From the NCBI GenBank assembly GCA_022763145.1, contig JALEGM010000093.1, positions 1 to 34,123 of the forward strand: DNA of 34,123 nucleotides, written 5' to 3'. Source of the stretch: Aquisalinus sp. (GTDB lineage Bacteria; Pseudomonadota; Alphaproteobacteria; Caulobacterales; Parvularculaceae). A program made the translations under genes and the position numbers. The notes beneath the pieces were generated by a model, which worked only from the letters and a program-made list of their open reading frames with translations, had not been told where the DNA came from and made no database searches. Shown piece after piece: positions 25,561 to 34,123 of the stretch. Within the stretch, counting starts at the first letter, position 1, and every line of letters starts with the position of its first letter.

Positions 25561-26919
25561 TCAGACTACGCCGTAAGCGACCATTGCTGCGGCTACCTTC
25601 TCAAACCCGGCTATATTGGCTCCGGCTACATAATTGACCTTGCCATCACCCTCACCATATTTGACGCACTTGGCGTGAATATCTTTCATGATGTTCTGGA
25701 GACGCTGATCCACCTCCTCGGCGTCCCAGGAAATCCGCAAGGAATTCTGGCTTTGTTCAAGACCCGAAACAGCAACCCCTCCAGCATTAGCTGCTTTCGC
25801 AGGCCCGAAAAGCACTCCAGCCTCAAGGAAGTTATGCACTGCTTCCAGAGTCGAAGGCATATTCGCCCCTTCAGCAACGACCTTGACCCCATTATCGATA
25901 AGGGTTCTCGCATCATCGCCATCTAGTTCATTTTGAGTGGCGCATGGCAGTGCGATATCACATTTTACGCCCCAAGGGCGTTTGCCTTCCATATATTCAG
26001 CCGAAGAGTACTTTTCAGCATACTCACTTATTCTACCACGTCGTACTTCCTTGAGCTGCTTGATGAACTCGAGTTTTTCCTCATCAATGCCATCTGGATC
26101 ATAGACTGATCCGCCGGAATCAGATGCAGTGAGCGGCTTGCCGCCATAATGAAGGACTTTCTCAATGGCATAAGTCGCCACATTACCGGAACCGGAAATG
26201 ACGACGTCTTTACCCTCTACACTATCATCTATGTGGTTCAGCATATTCTGGGCAAAGTAAACGGTGCCGTATCCCGTCGCCTCCTTACGGATAAGGCTGC
26301 CGCCATATTCAAGCCCCTTACCCGTCAGTACGCCAACAAAATTATTCTCAAGGCGCTTATATTGACCAAACATATAGCCAATCTCGCGCGCACCAACGCC
26401 AATATCGCCAGCGGGAACATCCTTGCTCTCCCCGATATGACGGTAAAGTTCGGTCATTAAAGAATGGCAAAAACGCATGATCTCAAGATCCGACCGCCCT
26501 TTCGGGTTGAAGTTTGAACCACCTTTCGCGCCGCCCATAGGCAAGCCTGTAAGGGCATTTTTGAAGCACTGTTCGAAACCGAGAAACTTCAGCACACTAA
26601 GTGTCACGCTGGGGTGAAACCGCATACCGCCTTTATAAGGACCTATGGCGTTGTTGAACTGAACACGCCAAGCCTTATTGGCGCGGATCGTCCCTGTGTC
26701 GTCCGACCAGGTCACGCGGAACATAACCACCCTATCCGGCTCCGTCATACGCTCCAATATGCGCCATTTACGATATTGGTCATGATCCAAATAATAGGGC
26801 ATGACTGTCTCCACCAGCTCCTGCACAGCCTGATGAAACTCGCCTTCATGCGGGTTACGGCGCTTGAGACCGGACATGAATTCCTTGACTTCTTTTTGCA
26901 CTGCTTTTGAGCTGGCCAC
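25561..26919 (-). CDS. gdhA: NADP-specific glutamate dehydrogenase
   Basis: NNAIGPYKGGMRFHPSVTLSVLKFLGFEQCFKNALTGLPMGGAKGGSNFNPKGRSDLEIMRFCHSLMTELYRHIG...VISGSGNVATYAIEKV. Confidence 0.96.
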   Translation of the reverse strand: MASSKAVQKEVKEFMSGLKRRNPHEGEFHQAVQELVETVMPYYLDHDQYRKWRILERMTEPDRVVMFRVTWSDDTGTIRANKAWRVQFNNAIGPYKGGMRFHPSVTLSVLKFLGFEQCFKNALTGLPMGGAKGGSNFNPKGRSDLEIMRFCHSLMTELYRHIGESKDVPAGDIGVGAREIGYMFGQYKRLENNFVGVLTGKGLEYGGSLIRKEATGYGTVYFAQNMLNHIDDSVEGKDVVISGSGNVATYAIEKVLHYGGKPLTASDSGGSVYDPDGIDEEKLEFIKQLKEVRRGRISEYAEKYSSAEYMEGKRPWGVKCDIALPCATQNELDGDDARTLIDNGVKVVAEGANMPSTLEAVHNFLEAGVLFGPAKAANAGGVAVSGLEQSQNSLRISWDAEEVDQRLQNIMKDIHAKCVKYGEGDGKVNYVAGANIAGFEKVAAAMVAYGVV

Positions 26920-27069: not shown

Positions 27070-27720
27070 TCAAGTGAGATAATCTACCAGCCGACTGGTG
27101 AGAGGCACGGTTGCATAATGTCGCAACTGAATGTCAGGATCAATCCAGACATCTATTCCCGCTTGCGTGCATCTTGTGCTGAAATAAAAATCAGAAGCAA
27201 TAAAGCCGTCTGGCTCACCTTCTCTTGGTGGCGCTATATCATGAAAGAACCAGGATTTGCAGGTACCTTCAGGGTGGTGATAGGTTTTTGCGTAGTCGAG
27301 CTCATCAAAGACAGATGTCTGAATACGGAGGAATGCCGTAGCCGCCAGGCCGGAAAGAAGATGGCCATGCCGCTTTATTTCCTGTTGATCGGGTATGGAA
27401 CAGAAAGAAATACTCTTTGGATCACGCCGCTGTGGGGCACCGGCTATAATACGGCACTCATCCGGCACATGAAATAATTTGCTGAATGCTTCCGGCTCCC
27501 AACCGATGTCGGAGTCGATGAAAACCACATCTGTTGCACCTCGTTTCAAGGCTTCGGCTACGAGGATATTACGCGCATGCGCAATGTTCGCCTGACCTAC
27601 GACATTCAACCAGGCTAGCTGCTCTTTAACAGCTCTGAATGTCTTCAGGAGAGAAGACGTAAAATCGGCATCCGTATTGCGATGAATAGGCGTACATATG
27701 GCTATCTTCCTTGCCATCAT
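27070..27720 (-). CDS. Glycosyltransferase-like protein (paralog B)
   Basis: AICTPIHRNTDADF...VFIDSDIGWEPEAFSKLF (DxD-like)...AGAPQRRD...SDFYFSTRCTQAGIDVWIDPDIQLRHY. Confidence 0.65.
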   Translation of the reverse strand: MMARKIAICTPIHRNTDADFTSSLLKTFRAVKEQLAWLNVVGQANIAHARNILVAEALKRGATDVVFIDSDIGWEPEAFSKLFHVPDECRIIAGAPQRRDPKSISFCSIPDQQEIKRHGHLLSGLAATAFLRIQTSVFDELDYAKTYHHPEGTCKSWFFHDIAPPREGEPDGFIASDFYFSTRCTQAGIDVWIDPDIQLRHYATVPLTSRLVDYLT

Positions 27721-27726
27721 TAACCT

Positions 27727-28374
27727 CTAAATATGATCCACCATACAGGCAGTCAGTGCGATATTATTGTAATGACGGAGCTTGATGGTCGGGTCGATCC
27801 AGTTTTCCACCCCCTCTTCCTTGCTCTTCATGCTGAAGTAGAAATCTTCATTGATGAAGCCACTAATGCCATGTTCCTGATTATAATACCTCACATAATC
27901 GAACCAAGCGCGTGTCTCACCGTCATTATGCTGATAGGTTTCGGCGTATTTTAACATCGGAAATACACGCGCCTGTATGCGCATGAAGGCTGTCGCAGCT
28001 ATACCTGAAATCAGGCGCCCATTTGTCGCGCGCTTATCGTCAACGACACTGCAAAATTTAATATCCTGCTGGTCACGACGCTGGGGAGCGCCAGCAACGA
28101 TAAGGCAATCCTGCGGGGCCTCAAACAATGCCGCAAAAGCATCCGGTTCCCAGCCAATATCGGAATCGATGAACACAATATCATCGACGCCACGCTTGAT
28201 GGCTTCCGACACAAGGATATTGCGCGCCTGCGCCAGATTAGCGTTACCCACCATATTCAGCCAGGCGAGATTGTCAGGATCTTTGACAGCGCGATACGTC
28301 TTGATGAGCGATGCCGTAAAGTCAGCATGCGTATAACGATGTATTGGTGTGCAGATCGCGACTTTTCGGTCCAT
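27727..28374 (-). CDS. Glycosyltransferase-like protein (paralog A)
   Basis: MDRKVAICTPIHRYTHADFTASLIKTYRAVKD...VFIDSDIGWEPDAFAALFEAPQDCLIVAGAPQRRD...EDFYFSMKSKEEGVENWIDPTIKLRHY. Confidence 0.65.
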   Translation of the reverse strand: MDRKVAICTPIHRYTHADFTASLIKTYRAVKDPDNLAWLNMVGNANLAQARNILVSEAIKRGVDDIVFIDSDIGWEPDAFAALFEAPQDCLIVAGAPQRRDQQDIKFCSVVDDKRATNGRLISGIAATAFMRIQARVFPMLKYAETYQHNDGETRAWFDYVRYYNQEHGISGFINEDFYFSMKSKEEGVENWIDPTIKLRHYNNIALTACMVDHI

Positions 28375-28500
28375 GGTCGAGACCTTAGGACTCCGCTTCA
28401 CCCCGATCAAGTCGCATGTTTGCGCAGACCAAACGGGAACAACACTGTTCAAAAGGCTGTTGATATCCTATGTCATGCTGAGAATTGAGTGAGGTTGACG

Positions 28501-29696: not shown

Positions 29697-30158
29697 TCAG
29701 CTCTCGCCGGTCAGGCGATCAATTTCTTTTTTCTCGTCCGCGCTTAGCGGCGCGACTTTAACTTCCGGTTGCTTTTGCAAGCGCAGAAAATACACGGCAA
29801 GCCCTGCCCCAATGATCAGCATAAAAATAGGGGAAATCCATAGCACGAGATTTTTGGGTGAAAGTCGGGGGCGTAACAGTACAAACTCACCATAACGATC
29901 AACCACATAATCCGTCACTTCTTCATTCGTGTCACCAGCAGCAACTCGTTCACGGACAAGAATACGCAAATCCTTAGCAAGCATAGCATCGGACTCATCA
30001 ATTGATTGATTTTTACATACAATGCAGCGCAGACCTTTGGAAATCTCACGGGCGCGCTCTTCCATGACCGGGTCGTCCAGAACTTCCTCTGGATCAATTG
30101 CAAATGCCGTAGAGATCGAGAAGCAGGCGACCAAAGTAAGAACGAAAAGCCTTTTCAT
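29697..30158 (-). CDS. ccmH: Cytochrome c-type biogenesis protein CcmH
   Basis: KGLRCIVCKNQSIDESDAMLAKDLRILVRERVAAGDTNEEVTDYVVDRYGEFVLLRPRL (LRCxxCxxQ motif). Confidence 0.93.
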   Translation of the reverse strand: MKRLFVLTLVACFSISTAFAIDPEEVLDDPVMEERAREISKGLRCIVCKNQSIDESDAMLAKDLRILVRERVAAGDTNEEVTDYVVDRYGEFVLLRPRLSPKNLVLWISPIFMLIIGAGLAVYFLRLQKQPEVKVAPLSADEKKEIDRLTGES

Positions 30159-30168
30159 ATCGGGCATC

Positions 30169-32184
30169 CTACTCTGCCGGCATAGCATCAGGTGCTGCTG
30201 TTGGTGATTCAGGCTTGGGGCTTGCCTGCTTAGGTTTTGGTGCGCCAACCCTGTATCGTCTGTCAGTCAACGAAACGATACCGCCAAAGGCCATCAACAA
30301 GGACCCGCTCCAGAGGTACATGACAAGGGGATGATAATAGGCACGGACAATGCGGGCCTCATTATTTTCGCCGCGTGGCTCGCCGATGGCAACATAAACA
30401 TCAGATGTCCAGCGTGGCTGAATAGCCGCTTCAACGGTCTGTTGCTGGGCAACCGGGTACCAGCGGCGCTCCGGCTGGACGATGCTGACGACTGTGCCAT
30501 TTCTAATCAGACTAAAGGTTGCCATTTCAGTTTCGTAGTTGGCAATATTAAGTATTTCGATGCGTTCCATGCGTAGCTGATAGTCAGCAACGTCAATAAC
30601 ATCCCCTGGTTTCATAATCGTCTGCTCTTCGGTCATCCAAAGAGATGTGCCGACCATGCCGAGAATACAGACACCAATACCGAAATGTGCCAGTGACCCG
30701 CCCCAAAAAGCACGTGGAAAACCAGCGGCCCGATTCAGGCTGGTTTTGAAAGGTATCTGAAAGAGTTTCATACGGAGCGCTATATCCGTCAGCGTACTCA
30801 GCATGATCCAGAAGGCTATGAGACAGCCAACAACAGCGAGAATGTTTCGGAATCCAGAAAGATAAAATGCAACAATAGTGAATATGACTGTCAAACCACC
30901 AGCCCATTTCAACCGACCCGAAACCGTTTTCATGTCACCGCGCTTCCATGGCAGTAAAATGCCATAGGCCATGACAGCCGCAAGCAACATCATCAAAGGA
31001 ATAGTCAGAATGTTATAATATGGGGGACCAACAGTGATGCGCTCACCAGTCATGAGCTCTGCAATAGTCGGCCAAAACGTACCAATCAGGACAATGAAGA
31101 GAATAACCGAGAGTAGCAGATTATTCAGTATAAGCGCTGACTCGCGGCTGACGGTCTGGAAGGTGCCCCCGGCCTTCATGGCCTGACCGCGCCATGCATA
31201 CAGCACAAAGGCGCCGCCTGTCAGAACGATACAAATCGCAAGTAGAAGTACACCACGATCAGGATCATTGGCGAAAGAATGCACACTTGTCAGCACCCCT
31301 GAGCGCACAACAAAGGTGCCAAGCAGAGAAGTGGAGAACGCAGTGATCGCCATGAGAATCGTCCAGAGCTTGAGCGTGTTGCGCTTTTCAACCACAATAG
31401 CACTGTGCAAAAGTGCTGTACCTGCAAGCCATGGCATCAAAGACGCATTCTCAACCGGATCCCAGAACCAGTACCCGCCCCAGCCAAGCTCGTAATAGGC
31501 CCACCAAGAACCCATGGCTATGCCGAGCGTGAGACTAGACCAAGCAAGCAATGTCCATGGCCGAACCCAGCGGGCCCATGCGGGGTCAACTTTGCCTTCA
31601 AGCAGAGCGGCAACGCTAAACGAAAACGCGACGGACATGCCGACATAGCCGAGATACAAAAATGGCGGGTGAAACGCCAGCCCGGGATCCTGCAGCAGCG
31701 GGTTTAGGTCCGTGCCATTAACCGGGACCGGGTCCATGCGCAGAAAAGGGTTGGAAGTGAAAAGTGAAAATGCAAGAAAACACGCCCCGATTAGCGCCTG
31801 AATACCAAGTACTCTTGCCTGCAGTGAGGGCGGAAGATTGCCACCAAACAATCCAACCAAAGCACCCAGAAATGCCAGCATCAGTATCCAGAGGATCATG
31901 GACCCTTCATGGTTGCCCCAGACACCGGCGATCTTATAGATCATCGGCTTTTCTGAATGACTGTTCTGATAAACATTCTCGACGCTGAAATCAGAGGTCA
32001 CATAGGCATGCATCAAGGCAAGGAATGCAATTAGCACAAGAACAAACTGCGCCATGCTGGCATTCTTGGCGAAAGTCATCCCTTTCTCATCCCCGACATG
32101 TGCGGCTCGAAGGGGAATAATCGTCTGACCTAATGCCACAACCAGAGCTAGGACCAGAGCATAATGACCTATTTCAGTAATCAT
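30169..32184 (-). CDS. ccmF: Heme lyase subunit CcmF
   Basis: ELGWGGYWFWDPVENASLMPWLAGTALLHS (WWD domain), many TMs. Confidence 0.95.
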   Translation of the reverse strand: MITEIGHYALVLALVVALGQTIIPLRAAHVGDEKGMTFAKNASMAQFVLVLIAFLALMHAYVTSDFSVENVYQNSHSEKPMIYKIAGVWGNHEGSMILWILMLAFLGALVGLFGGNLPPSLQARVLGIQALIGACFLAFSLFTSNPFLRMDPVPVNGTDLNPLLQDPGLAFHPPFLYLGYVGMSVAFSFSVAALLEGKVDPAWARWVRPWTLLAWSSLTLGIAMGSWWAYYELGWGGYWFWDPVENASLMPWLAGTALLHSAIVVEKRNTLKLWTILMAITAFSTSLLGTFVVRSGVLTSVHSFANDPDRGVLLLAICIVLTGGAFVLYAWRGQAMKAGGTFQTVSRESALILNNLLLSVILFIVLIGTFWPTIAELMTGERITVGPPYYNILTIPLMMLLAAVMAYGILLPWKRGDMKTVSGRLKWAGGLTVIFTIVAFYLSGFRNILAVVGCLIAFWIMLSTLTDIALRMKLFQIPFKTSLNRAAGFPRAFWGGSLAHFGIGVCILGMVGTSLWMTEEQTIMKPGDVIDVADYQLRMERIEILNIANYETEMATFSLIRNGTVVSIVQPERRWYPVAQQQTVEAAIQPRWTSDVYVAIGEPRGENNEARIVRAYYHPLVMYLWSGSLLMAFGGIVSLTDRRYRVGAPKPKQASPKPESPTAAPDAMPAE

Positions 32185-32246: not shown

Positions 32247-34123
32247 CTATTGATCCTGCAGGATGTTTGTTACTTCAGCAGCATGTGGCAGGCTGGCCGA
32301 TGAGACAGCAAGCTCATCAACACGTTTGGGCCAAATTGATGCATGACGCGTCCTGGAGGAATTCTCAGGAGTCATAAACGGTTGATGTGTGTCGTCGTGA
32401 TACTCATGACACATCAGGCAGTTTGATGGGATGAAGTTGACCGTCGTTTCACCTCGGTGGCAATCTAGGCAATTATCTATGCCTGGCAGCAACACATCGG
32501 TTGCACTGTCTGATGTTTCCGCTTCATGGCAGTCGAGACAATTCATGAAATCATGGCTTTCATGATGGAAGACTGTCTTAGGCATGAACTGTTCTTCCAA
32601 AGACACATGAGAGATGTCGTACTTTAGGGGATCACCGTCTTCAGGCTCGACAATCACATGGCAGTCATAACAAGCGCCACCTTCATTGAAGATTTCTGCA
32701 ACCCGCTGCTTCGCACGATCACTGGCGAAAAGTAGTGAGTCCACAAGGCGATTGTCTTCGCGCAACTGGGCAACATCTCCAGGACGGCGACGCGTTGAAC
32801 CACCAGTATTAGATTCATCGAAGAGGCGCGCTGCGGATGAGTTATAGAAGTCCTGCATGCTCGCAATAACATCTTGAGGCTCTCCATGACGCAATGTGCG
32901 GATATAGCCAGTTTCAGGATCCTGATCGAAAGCGAGCGAGTGACACATGCCGCAATTCTGCTCCATGTTGACTGGCAGGAACAACGCACCGGCGGCATTT
33001 GTCTGGTGACAATCCTCACAGCCGAGGACCTCGTCAAATCCCCACTCATCAGCCAGGTCCATCGCCTGTTTTGCAACGGCACCATCAGCTTCGAGATGGA
33101 TATCATGCGGGAATTTCAAGCCAGAATAAGACTTCGGATTATCGTCAAGGCTAATACGTGCTGTCAGCGGATTATCAAAATGCGGTTCTGTAATGACTGT
33201 CGGACGGAAATTCGGATGATCGACATCAAAGTGACTGACGTTAATTAAATCAGTATCAGTCAGTCTTTCGTCCATATCGGCATGACAATCGTTACAGGTG
33301 CCTTCCGACGTCAGAATGACGCCCTCTCGTCCGTTGTGCTCCATATGGCAAGACCCACAGGCCATCTCGTTTTTACCAGTAAACTGAGCGACTGAACGCA
33401 GGATTTCTTCACCGGCAGAAAGCGGTGGCTTCGAGGCCCAGAGATCATCCTGTTCTGCGTGATTGCGAATGCCGTCATGGCACCCAGAAGACAGACAGGT
33501 TACATCCTGCACGGACTCAAACGCATTGAGATGACAAGCATTACAGTTGTCAGCCAGACTTGTATGGGCCAATGACATGGGCCCGGACAACCAAAGCTGA
33601 TCGACCCGCGTGCCAATCAGTTCCTGGTCCGCCCTGATCTCAATGGGGTTGGCAACATCAGCCTTACGGTCAGAATAGAAATAATATAGGGGCGCTGCGA
33701 TGGCGACGAATATAGTCAGGAGAGCCCAGAACCAGGAATGGGAGCGCTTACCGAGAACAGCTTTCTTGAGGCTGAAGATTTTTTCTTCATCCTCTGGCTG
33801 GAGCATCTGTGTTTTTTCTTCGGTGCGCTCCGTGGCGACAACAATAGAGTCATCTTCCTTATAAATCTTAATCTGATAAGGACCGATACCAATTGTGTTC
33901 TCGTCTTTAGCAGGAAAAACGAAGCGGGTGCCGAACTTGCCCTTGGCTTTGACAGGTCGGTCGCTTGTGGCCTGCACGCGAATGCTCGTACCCGCTGCTT
34001 CAATAGTCGCGTGATTAAGACTGACTGTCAGGTCCGGCAGATAGATATCGCACTCGGTTGCGCGACCTACAGTGAGCTCTGTCTTGTTAACAGGCTGGTC
34101 GCGAACAACTTCCTGACCATTAG
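32247..34123 (-). CDS. FHA domain-TM-multiheme cytochrome c (9 CXXCH plus one CX4CH), 5' truncated at window edge
   Basis: Reading frame stays open to 34123: NGQEVVRDQPVNKTELTVGRATECDIYLPDLTVSLNHATIEAAGTSIRVQATSDRPV... (FHA-like GR...S..H); TM SWFWALLTIFVAIAAPLYYFY; heme motifs CNACH, CLSSGCH, CGSCH, CNDCH, CEDCH, CGMCH, CYDCH, CLDCH, CLDCH, CLMCH. Confidence 0.85.
   Translation of the reverse strand, partial: NGQEVVRDQPVNKTELTVGRATECDIYLPDLTVSLNHATIEAAGTSIRVQATSDRPVKAKGKFGTRFVFPAKDENTIGIGPYQIKIYKEDDSIVVATERTEEKTQMLQPEDEEKIFSLKKAVLGKRSHSWFWALLTIFVAIAAPLYYFYSDRKADVANPIEIRADQELIGTRVDQLWLSGPMSLAHTSLADNCNACHLNAFESVQDVTCLSSGCHDGIRNHAEQDDLWASKPPLSAGEEILRSVAQFTGKNEMACGSCHMEHNGREGVILTSEGTCNDCHADMDERLTDTDLINVSHFDVDHPNFRPTVITEPHFDNPLTARISLDDNPKSYSGLKFPHDIHLEADGAVAKQAMDLADEWGFDEVLGCEDCHQTNAAGALFLPVNMEQNCGMCHSLAFDQDPETGYIRTLRHGEPQDVIASMQDFYNSSAARLFDESNTGGSTRRRPGDVAQLREDNRLVDSLLFASDRAKQRVAEIFNEGGACYDCHVIVEPEDGDPLKYDISHVSLEEQFMPKTVFHHESHDFMNCLDCHEAETSDSATDVLLPGIDNCLDCHRGETTVNFIPSNCLMCHEYHDDTHQPFMTPENSSRTRHASIWPKRVDELAVSSASLPHAAEVTNILQDQ

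Follow-up and report, generated by a model that had tools for sequence, protein, structure and literature searches.

An FHA-domain decahaem cytochrome c of Alphaproteobacteria, a probable subunit of an inner-membrane electron-transfer complex serving outer-membrane conduits

At the end of a contig of Aquisalinus sp. we identified the gene of an FHA-TM-decahaem cytochrome c (32247..34121, minus strand), termed FHA-cytochrome in the following. The window analysed here, 34,123 nt long, is all of contig C290 in a draft genome of 2.9 Mb. Comparison with its homologues confirmed, at the level of sequence, that the protein is real and conserved, its periplasmic part with ten haem sites being anchored by a cytoplasmic FHA-fold domain. 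We propose, with a probability of about 0.6, that the FHA-cytochrome acts as the periplasmic subunit through which electrons leave or enter a three-protein complex of the inner membrane, which in turn serves outer-membrane conduits.

Since the window is a whole contig, the N-terminus of the FHA-cytochrome is unreadable inside it: the ORF is open at the window end, and the visible part (624 of 636 aa) begins with NGQEVVRDQPVNKTELTVGRATECDIYLPDLTVSLNHATIEAAG, followed by one hydrophobic helix and then by CXXCH motifs. The final 19 bases of C290 are identical to the initial 19 bases of contig C26, which supplies the N-terminal piece MTFIIRKIRRRP including the start codon. The joined gene codes for 636 aa starting with MTFIIRKIRRRPNGQEVV, so that the N-terminus sought by the first-pass annotation beyond position 34123 is recovered. 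A location at a contig end may raise the suspicion of a frameshift or an assembly chimera in which two genes, one for an FHA protein and one for a cytochrome, were fused, and a frameshift had been considered from the outset. The chance of such an artefact is negligible, and we ruled it out: the same fusion in one ORF recurs in 47 independent homologues, complete genomes among them, with ten haem sites in each of the sequences, and the overlap with C26 puts the start codon back in frame.

The FHA-fold domain occupies about residues 1–115 (residues ~13–115 of 636 at 33813..34121, minus strand). It scores 23.0 bits with the Pfam FHA model (PF00498; gathering cut-off 20.7); at E<=0.01, 33 of 40 family members match FHA and 37 of 40 match Yop-YscD_cpl. 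A profile search with the N-terminal region found the FHA structures of GarA, OdhI and Rad53, GarA being the best match (E=1.7e-11). AlphaFold predicted 11 strands for the domain (pLDDT 84), and Foldseek returned FHA structures throughout the list (probability 1.0), bar a few entries titled by the whole assembly; the nearest structures are GarA and OdhI. An FHA fold was defined as an 11-strand beta sandwich combined with a PF00498/PF16697 match, and the domain has both. Pfam, profile search and AlphaFold/Foldseek thus agree on the N-terminal FHA fold that the first-pass annotation had claimed, and place it within the first 120 residues.

A single TM helix (WFWALLTIFVAIAAPLYYF; residues 142–160, 33678..33734, minus strand) was located by hydropathy, and in 30 of 40 homologues its N-side flank holds more K/R than its C-side flank. 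The decahaem domain behind it (32406..33545, minus strand) contains, in this order, the motifs CNACH, CLSSGCH, CGSCH, CNDCH, CEDCH, CGMCH, CYDCH, CLDCH, CLDCH and CLMCH. Nine of them are the CXXCH motifs counted before; the second, a CX4CH (33477–33497), had been overlooked and, as the tenth site, makes the protein truly decahaem. The Pfam models Cytochrome_C7 and Cytochrom_c3_2 both exceed their own cut-offs, in line with the c3/c7 folds suspected earlier. The initial reading of one TM segment followed by a periplasmic multihaem electron carrier is borne out. AlphaFold modelled the haem domain with a pLDDT of 37 (full-length run, four sequences), so the geometry of the haem wire was not obtained.

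Homologues are present in 15 of the 62 genomes of the host's family, in 38 of 385 genomes sampled across the class (35 are convincing; three matches are short or weak), and, beyond the class, in five or more of the genomes sampled from elsewhere in the phylum. The closest named relative belongs to Aquisalinus sp. (97% identity), and relatives on Sphingobium plasmids are annotated merely as hypothetical or "cytochrome c3 family". All ten haem motifs and additional invariant His are retained in a 40-row alignment, within which identity to the reference drops to 27%. For four loci (L008, L049, L050 and L055) the tblastn matches are interrupted by stops, though several give a readable full ORF; these stops probably reflect where alignments end or where the sequence has local errors.

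Wherever a locus is long enough for a judgement, and in two classes, the FHA-cytochrome is the third gene of a three-gene operon on a single strand. The first gene encodes a flavo/Fe-S protein that binds cNMP, the second a dihaem cytochrome b. The host carries the first two genes on contig C26, and its inner operon is single-copy. According to Pfam, the flavo/Fe-S protein (about 815 aa) combines a Pyr_redox_3/YpdA-like FAD domain, two cNMP-binding domains and a four-cluster ferredoxin part. At least 95% of 41 sequences retain the 16 Cys for four 4Fe-4S clusters as well as E422/R431 and E547/R556, so that both cNMP domains possess the E/R pair in the phosphate-binding cassette by which we defined a cAMP/cGMP-binding domain. 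The cytochrome b (about 295 aa), with five TM helices as judged by eye from the alignment, has the haem-ligand motifs W-x3-H97-x13-H111 (W93) and W-x3-H273-x13-H287 (W269) as well as an SGxxG motif (S134-G135..G138, alignment A5); a PDB profile search with it gave chance coiled-coil matches only. Near the operon, five loci of one family (L030–L034) encode a CHASE2 protein (L030:3155-5536 and equivalents in L031–L034), with an adenylate/guanylate cyclase domain in the one scanned, L030. Together with the cNMP domains, this linkage, seen in a single family only, suggests that the complex may be under second-messenger control. Most of the CHASE2 loci additionally encode a protein with a FecR domain and an outer-membrane protein of TPR-like type. 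In L116 and L117, which come from another class of the phylum, nine CXXCH were counted in the FHA-cytochrome, the flavo/Fe-S protein and cytochrome b read as a single ORF of about 1,120 aa, and neither of the two porins described below was found.

Further recurrent neighbours are an HbpS-like protein (with a lipoprotein-type signal usual among close relatives), a porin-like protein (porin A), a c554-like cytochrome, and a decahaem cytochrome of 1,250–1,390 aa that bears LVIVD repeats. We refer to the HbpS-like lipoprotein, porin A and this LVIVD-repeat decahaem cytochrome (~1,350 aa) as module A; module B consists of a 4-haem and a 5-haem cytochrome plus porin B, which adjoins the 5-haem cytochrome in the loci read. 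Porin A was found in 29 of the 385 class genomes, and all 29 fall within the 35 FHA-cytochrome-positive ones (hypergeometric log10 P about -37, with genomes counted as independent and relatedness uncorrected). Five of the six positive genomes lacking porin A carry porin B; the sixth (G086) is an 86%-complete draft with the HbpS gene at a contig edge. The host owns both modules, A on C26, C169 and C181 and B on C303. On C303 (locus L155, 1650-4115), genes for a Rieske_3 protein and a molybdopterin oxidoreductase of the arsenite-oxidase large-subunit type lie directly upstream of the module-B cytochromes. The porins are conserved ORFs adjoining multihaem cytochromes. They had no match in Pfam, and PDB profile searches found no relative of porin A or of the giant decahaem cytochrome of module A; the predicted outer-membrane placement of the porins therefore draws on published analogues, on N-termini that resemble signal sequences and on an aromatic residue at the C-terminus.

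Such outer parts are already known as putative porin-cytochrome clusters (PCCs; PMC5566968 and PMC13264449). PCC4 of He et al. 2017 comprises a porin and 4-, 5- and 10-haem cytochromes, and its inner-membrane protein has five TM together with SGXXG and a pair of WX3HX13H motifs (PMC5566968). These motifs, which are described for PCC3 as well, are the same as in the cytochrome b reported here, and the Fe-S domain pfam13247 is also common to PCC4 and our system. Three of our loci (L085, L087 and L088) hold 4-, 5- and 10-haem cytochromes, a porin, the inner-membrane protein and the Fe-S redox protein in a single cluster, in which the FHA-cytochrome is the sole 10-haem member; in the host, this set is divided between C26/C290 and C303. 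The likeness is judged by composition and by the motifs described in PMC5566968. That paper treats the cytochrome as periplasmic, its main text being without an FHA domain, whereas the protein reported here is FHA-anchored. Most of our loci share the inner module with PCC4, but have another outer module (porin A, HbpS-like protein and the 1,350-aa decahaem cytochrome). Group-1 PCCs from ghost-rock metagenomes (PMC13264449, 2026) are described as a 4–5 kb decahaem cytochrome gene beside a ~20-strand porin, with a "ferredoxin-NADP reductase" close by in 7 of 11 cases. Compared by description, they resemble module A plus the flavo/Fe-S protein, whereas an FHA cytochrome, a five-helix cytochrome b and cNMP domains go unmentioned in the section consulted.

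The module A decahaem cytochrome matches the NCBIfam model of Geobacter ExtM (E=1e-18), but its 67 bits stay below the equivalog cut-off of 800. Ferric reductases and NADPH oxidases (FRD, NOX) resemble the cytochrome b in the dihaem HX13H pattern on helices 3 and 5 and in the flavin feed from the cytoplasmic side; they differ in that the cytochrome b has no Pfam FRD match and that we propose entry via Fe-S clusters and exit to a decahaem protein. A pairing of an FHA domain with a multihaem cytochrome was not found in the open literature. As far as main texts there go, the FHA domain, the cNMP-regulated flavo/Fe-S partner and the combination of one inner module with two outer modules seem undescribed.

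According to our proposal, NAD(P)H would reduce the FAD of the flavo/Fe-S protein (YpdA-like fold, two cNMP-binding domains, four 4Fe-4S), and its Fe-S clusters would pass electrons to the five-helix cytochrome b, across which two b haems would be stacked. From there, electrons would reach the FHA-cytochrome with its ten haems in the periplasm and, through small multihaem carriers, the outer-membrane conduit (module A or B). Cyclic nucleotides might tune electron entry at the flavo/Fe-S protein, while the FHA domain would dock this cytoplasmic subunit onto the membrane complex. In its broadest form, the idea of a common electron port, with one cNMP-gated, FHA-clamped inner complex, two interchangeable conduits and an NAD(P)H-driven extracellular path under second-messenger control, is a tentative one that we put forward with less than even confidence. 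The named host genera Aquisalinus, Sphingopyxis and Sphingobium are not known as metal respirers, which counts against the conduit reading.

Electrons could also flow inward, the conduit oxidising an extracellular donor, for instance Fe(II) or Mn(II), and the FHA-decahaem part delivering to cytochrome b and further to quinone or NAD(P). The occurrence of PCC3/PCC4 in Fe(II) oxidisers led He et al. 2017 to propose inward flow for these systems (PMC5566968). In the host, module B adjoins the Rieske_3/molybdopterin oxidoreductase of the arsenite-oxidase type, and haem chains are reversible. We nevertheless consider an inward path rather unlikely, as the cytoplasmic partner, a pyridine-nucleotide flavoprotein of the YpdA/TrxR type that carries cNMP domains, reads easier as an NAD(P)H oxidase, and export is favoured for PCC-bearing heterotrophs with similar clusters by the authors of PMC13264449. 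Less probable still is that the inner operon serves periplasmic reductases or detoxification, with the porins co-occurring for other reasons. Here one may point to the c554-like cytochrome, which could be a terminal enzyme, and to three operon-bearing genomes of another class (G446, G471 and G576) in which neither porin A nor porin B was found; against this stands the FHA-cytochrome in all 29 porin-A genomes, with porin B as a substitute elsewhere.

The first-pass annotation had read the FHA domain as a binder of Thr-phosphopeptides and a possible link from Ser/Thr kinase signalling to electron transfer, a reading in keeping with the FHA fold, its GR, and the phospho-regulated nature of its closest structures, GarA and OdhI. 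The GR...S..H signature on which it was based indeed exists in the host genus, which retains S and H. Across 40 aligned members, however, Gly31/Arg32 are found in 40, but His49 in 28 and Ser46 in only six, and the canonical Asn of STNG is absent from the alignment of the family with GarA. The FHA-cytochromes thus share the fold of the GarA, OdhI and Rad53 domains, but do not conserve the phosphothreonine-binding Ser and Asn, and as a family they do not carry the signature of phosphothreonine-binding FHA domains (G-R, S..H, N-G of STNG). Hanks kinases were absent or below cut-off in five gene-bearing genomes (G000, G012, G014, G206 and G803), which take in the host and one complete genome of the host genus. 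The flanking genes had been named earlier as a place to look for a kinase: none was seen among the inspected recurrent neighbours, the conserved partners being the flavo/Fe-S protein and the dihaem cytochrome b. On residue conservation and the lack of Hanks kinases above cut-off in those five genomes, the phospho-signalling reading fails at the family level, with a less strict verdict for the host genus, which keeps S and H; phosphopeptide binding is not supported, the kinase link was discarded, and a kinase cascade coupled to electron transfer through this domain appears highly improbable. Most likely, the FHA domain would act as a phosphothreonine-independent docking clamp between the cytoplasmic subunit and the membrane complex.

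Roughly a tenth of the alphaproteobacterial genomes sampled have the operon, and nearly all of these have one of the two conduits. If our proposal of a complex serving outer-membrane conduits is true, extracellular electron exchange would be common in ordinary Alphaproteobacteria mostly unsuspected of such an ability, and would be tied to NAD(P)H, not to quinol alone, under cyclic-nucleotide control. The hypothesis is directly testable in culturable Sphingobium and Sphingopyxis hosts, for which the FHA-cytochrome provides a single-gene marker to locate and delete the system.

Within the window, the FHA-cytochrome gene lies upstream of ccmF-ccmH on the same strand, as had been stated before. 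The haem lyase gene ccmF (30169..32184, minus strand) is located 62 bases downstream of the FHA-cytochrome stop and adjoins ccmH (29697..30248, minus strand, by ORF reading). Outside the genus, this adjacency extends to just two genomes of the family; being local only, it ruled out membership of the FHA-cytochrome in a ccm operon. The window further contains two related tandem genes (27070–28452) of 216 and 241 aa, the first with a weak match to an Anp1-like glycosyltransferase, and a glutamate dehydrogenase gene (25561–26919), a homologue of which is found near the FHA-cytochrome operon or the outer module in nine loci.
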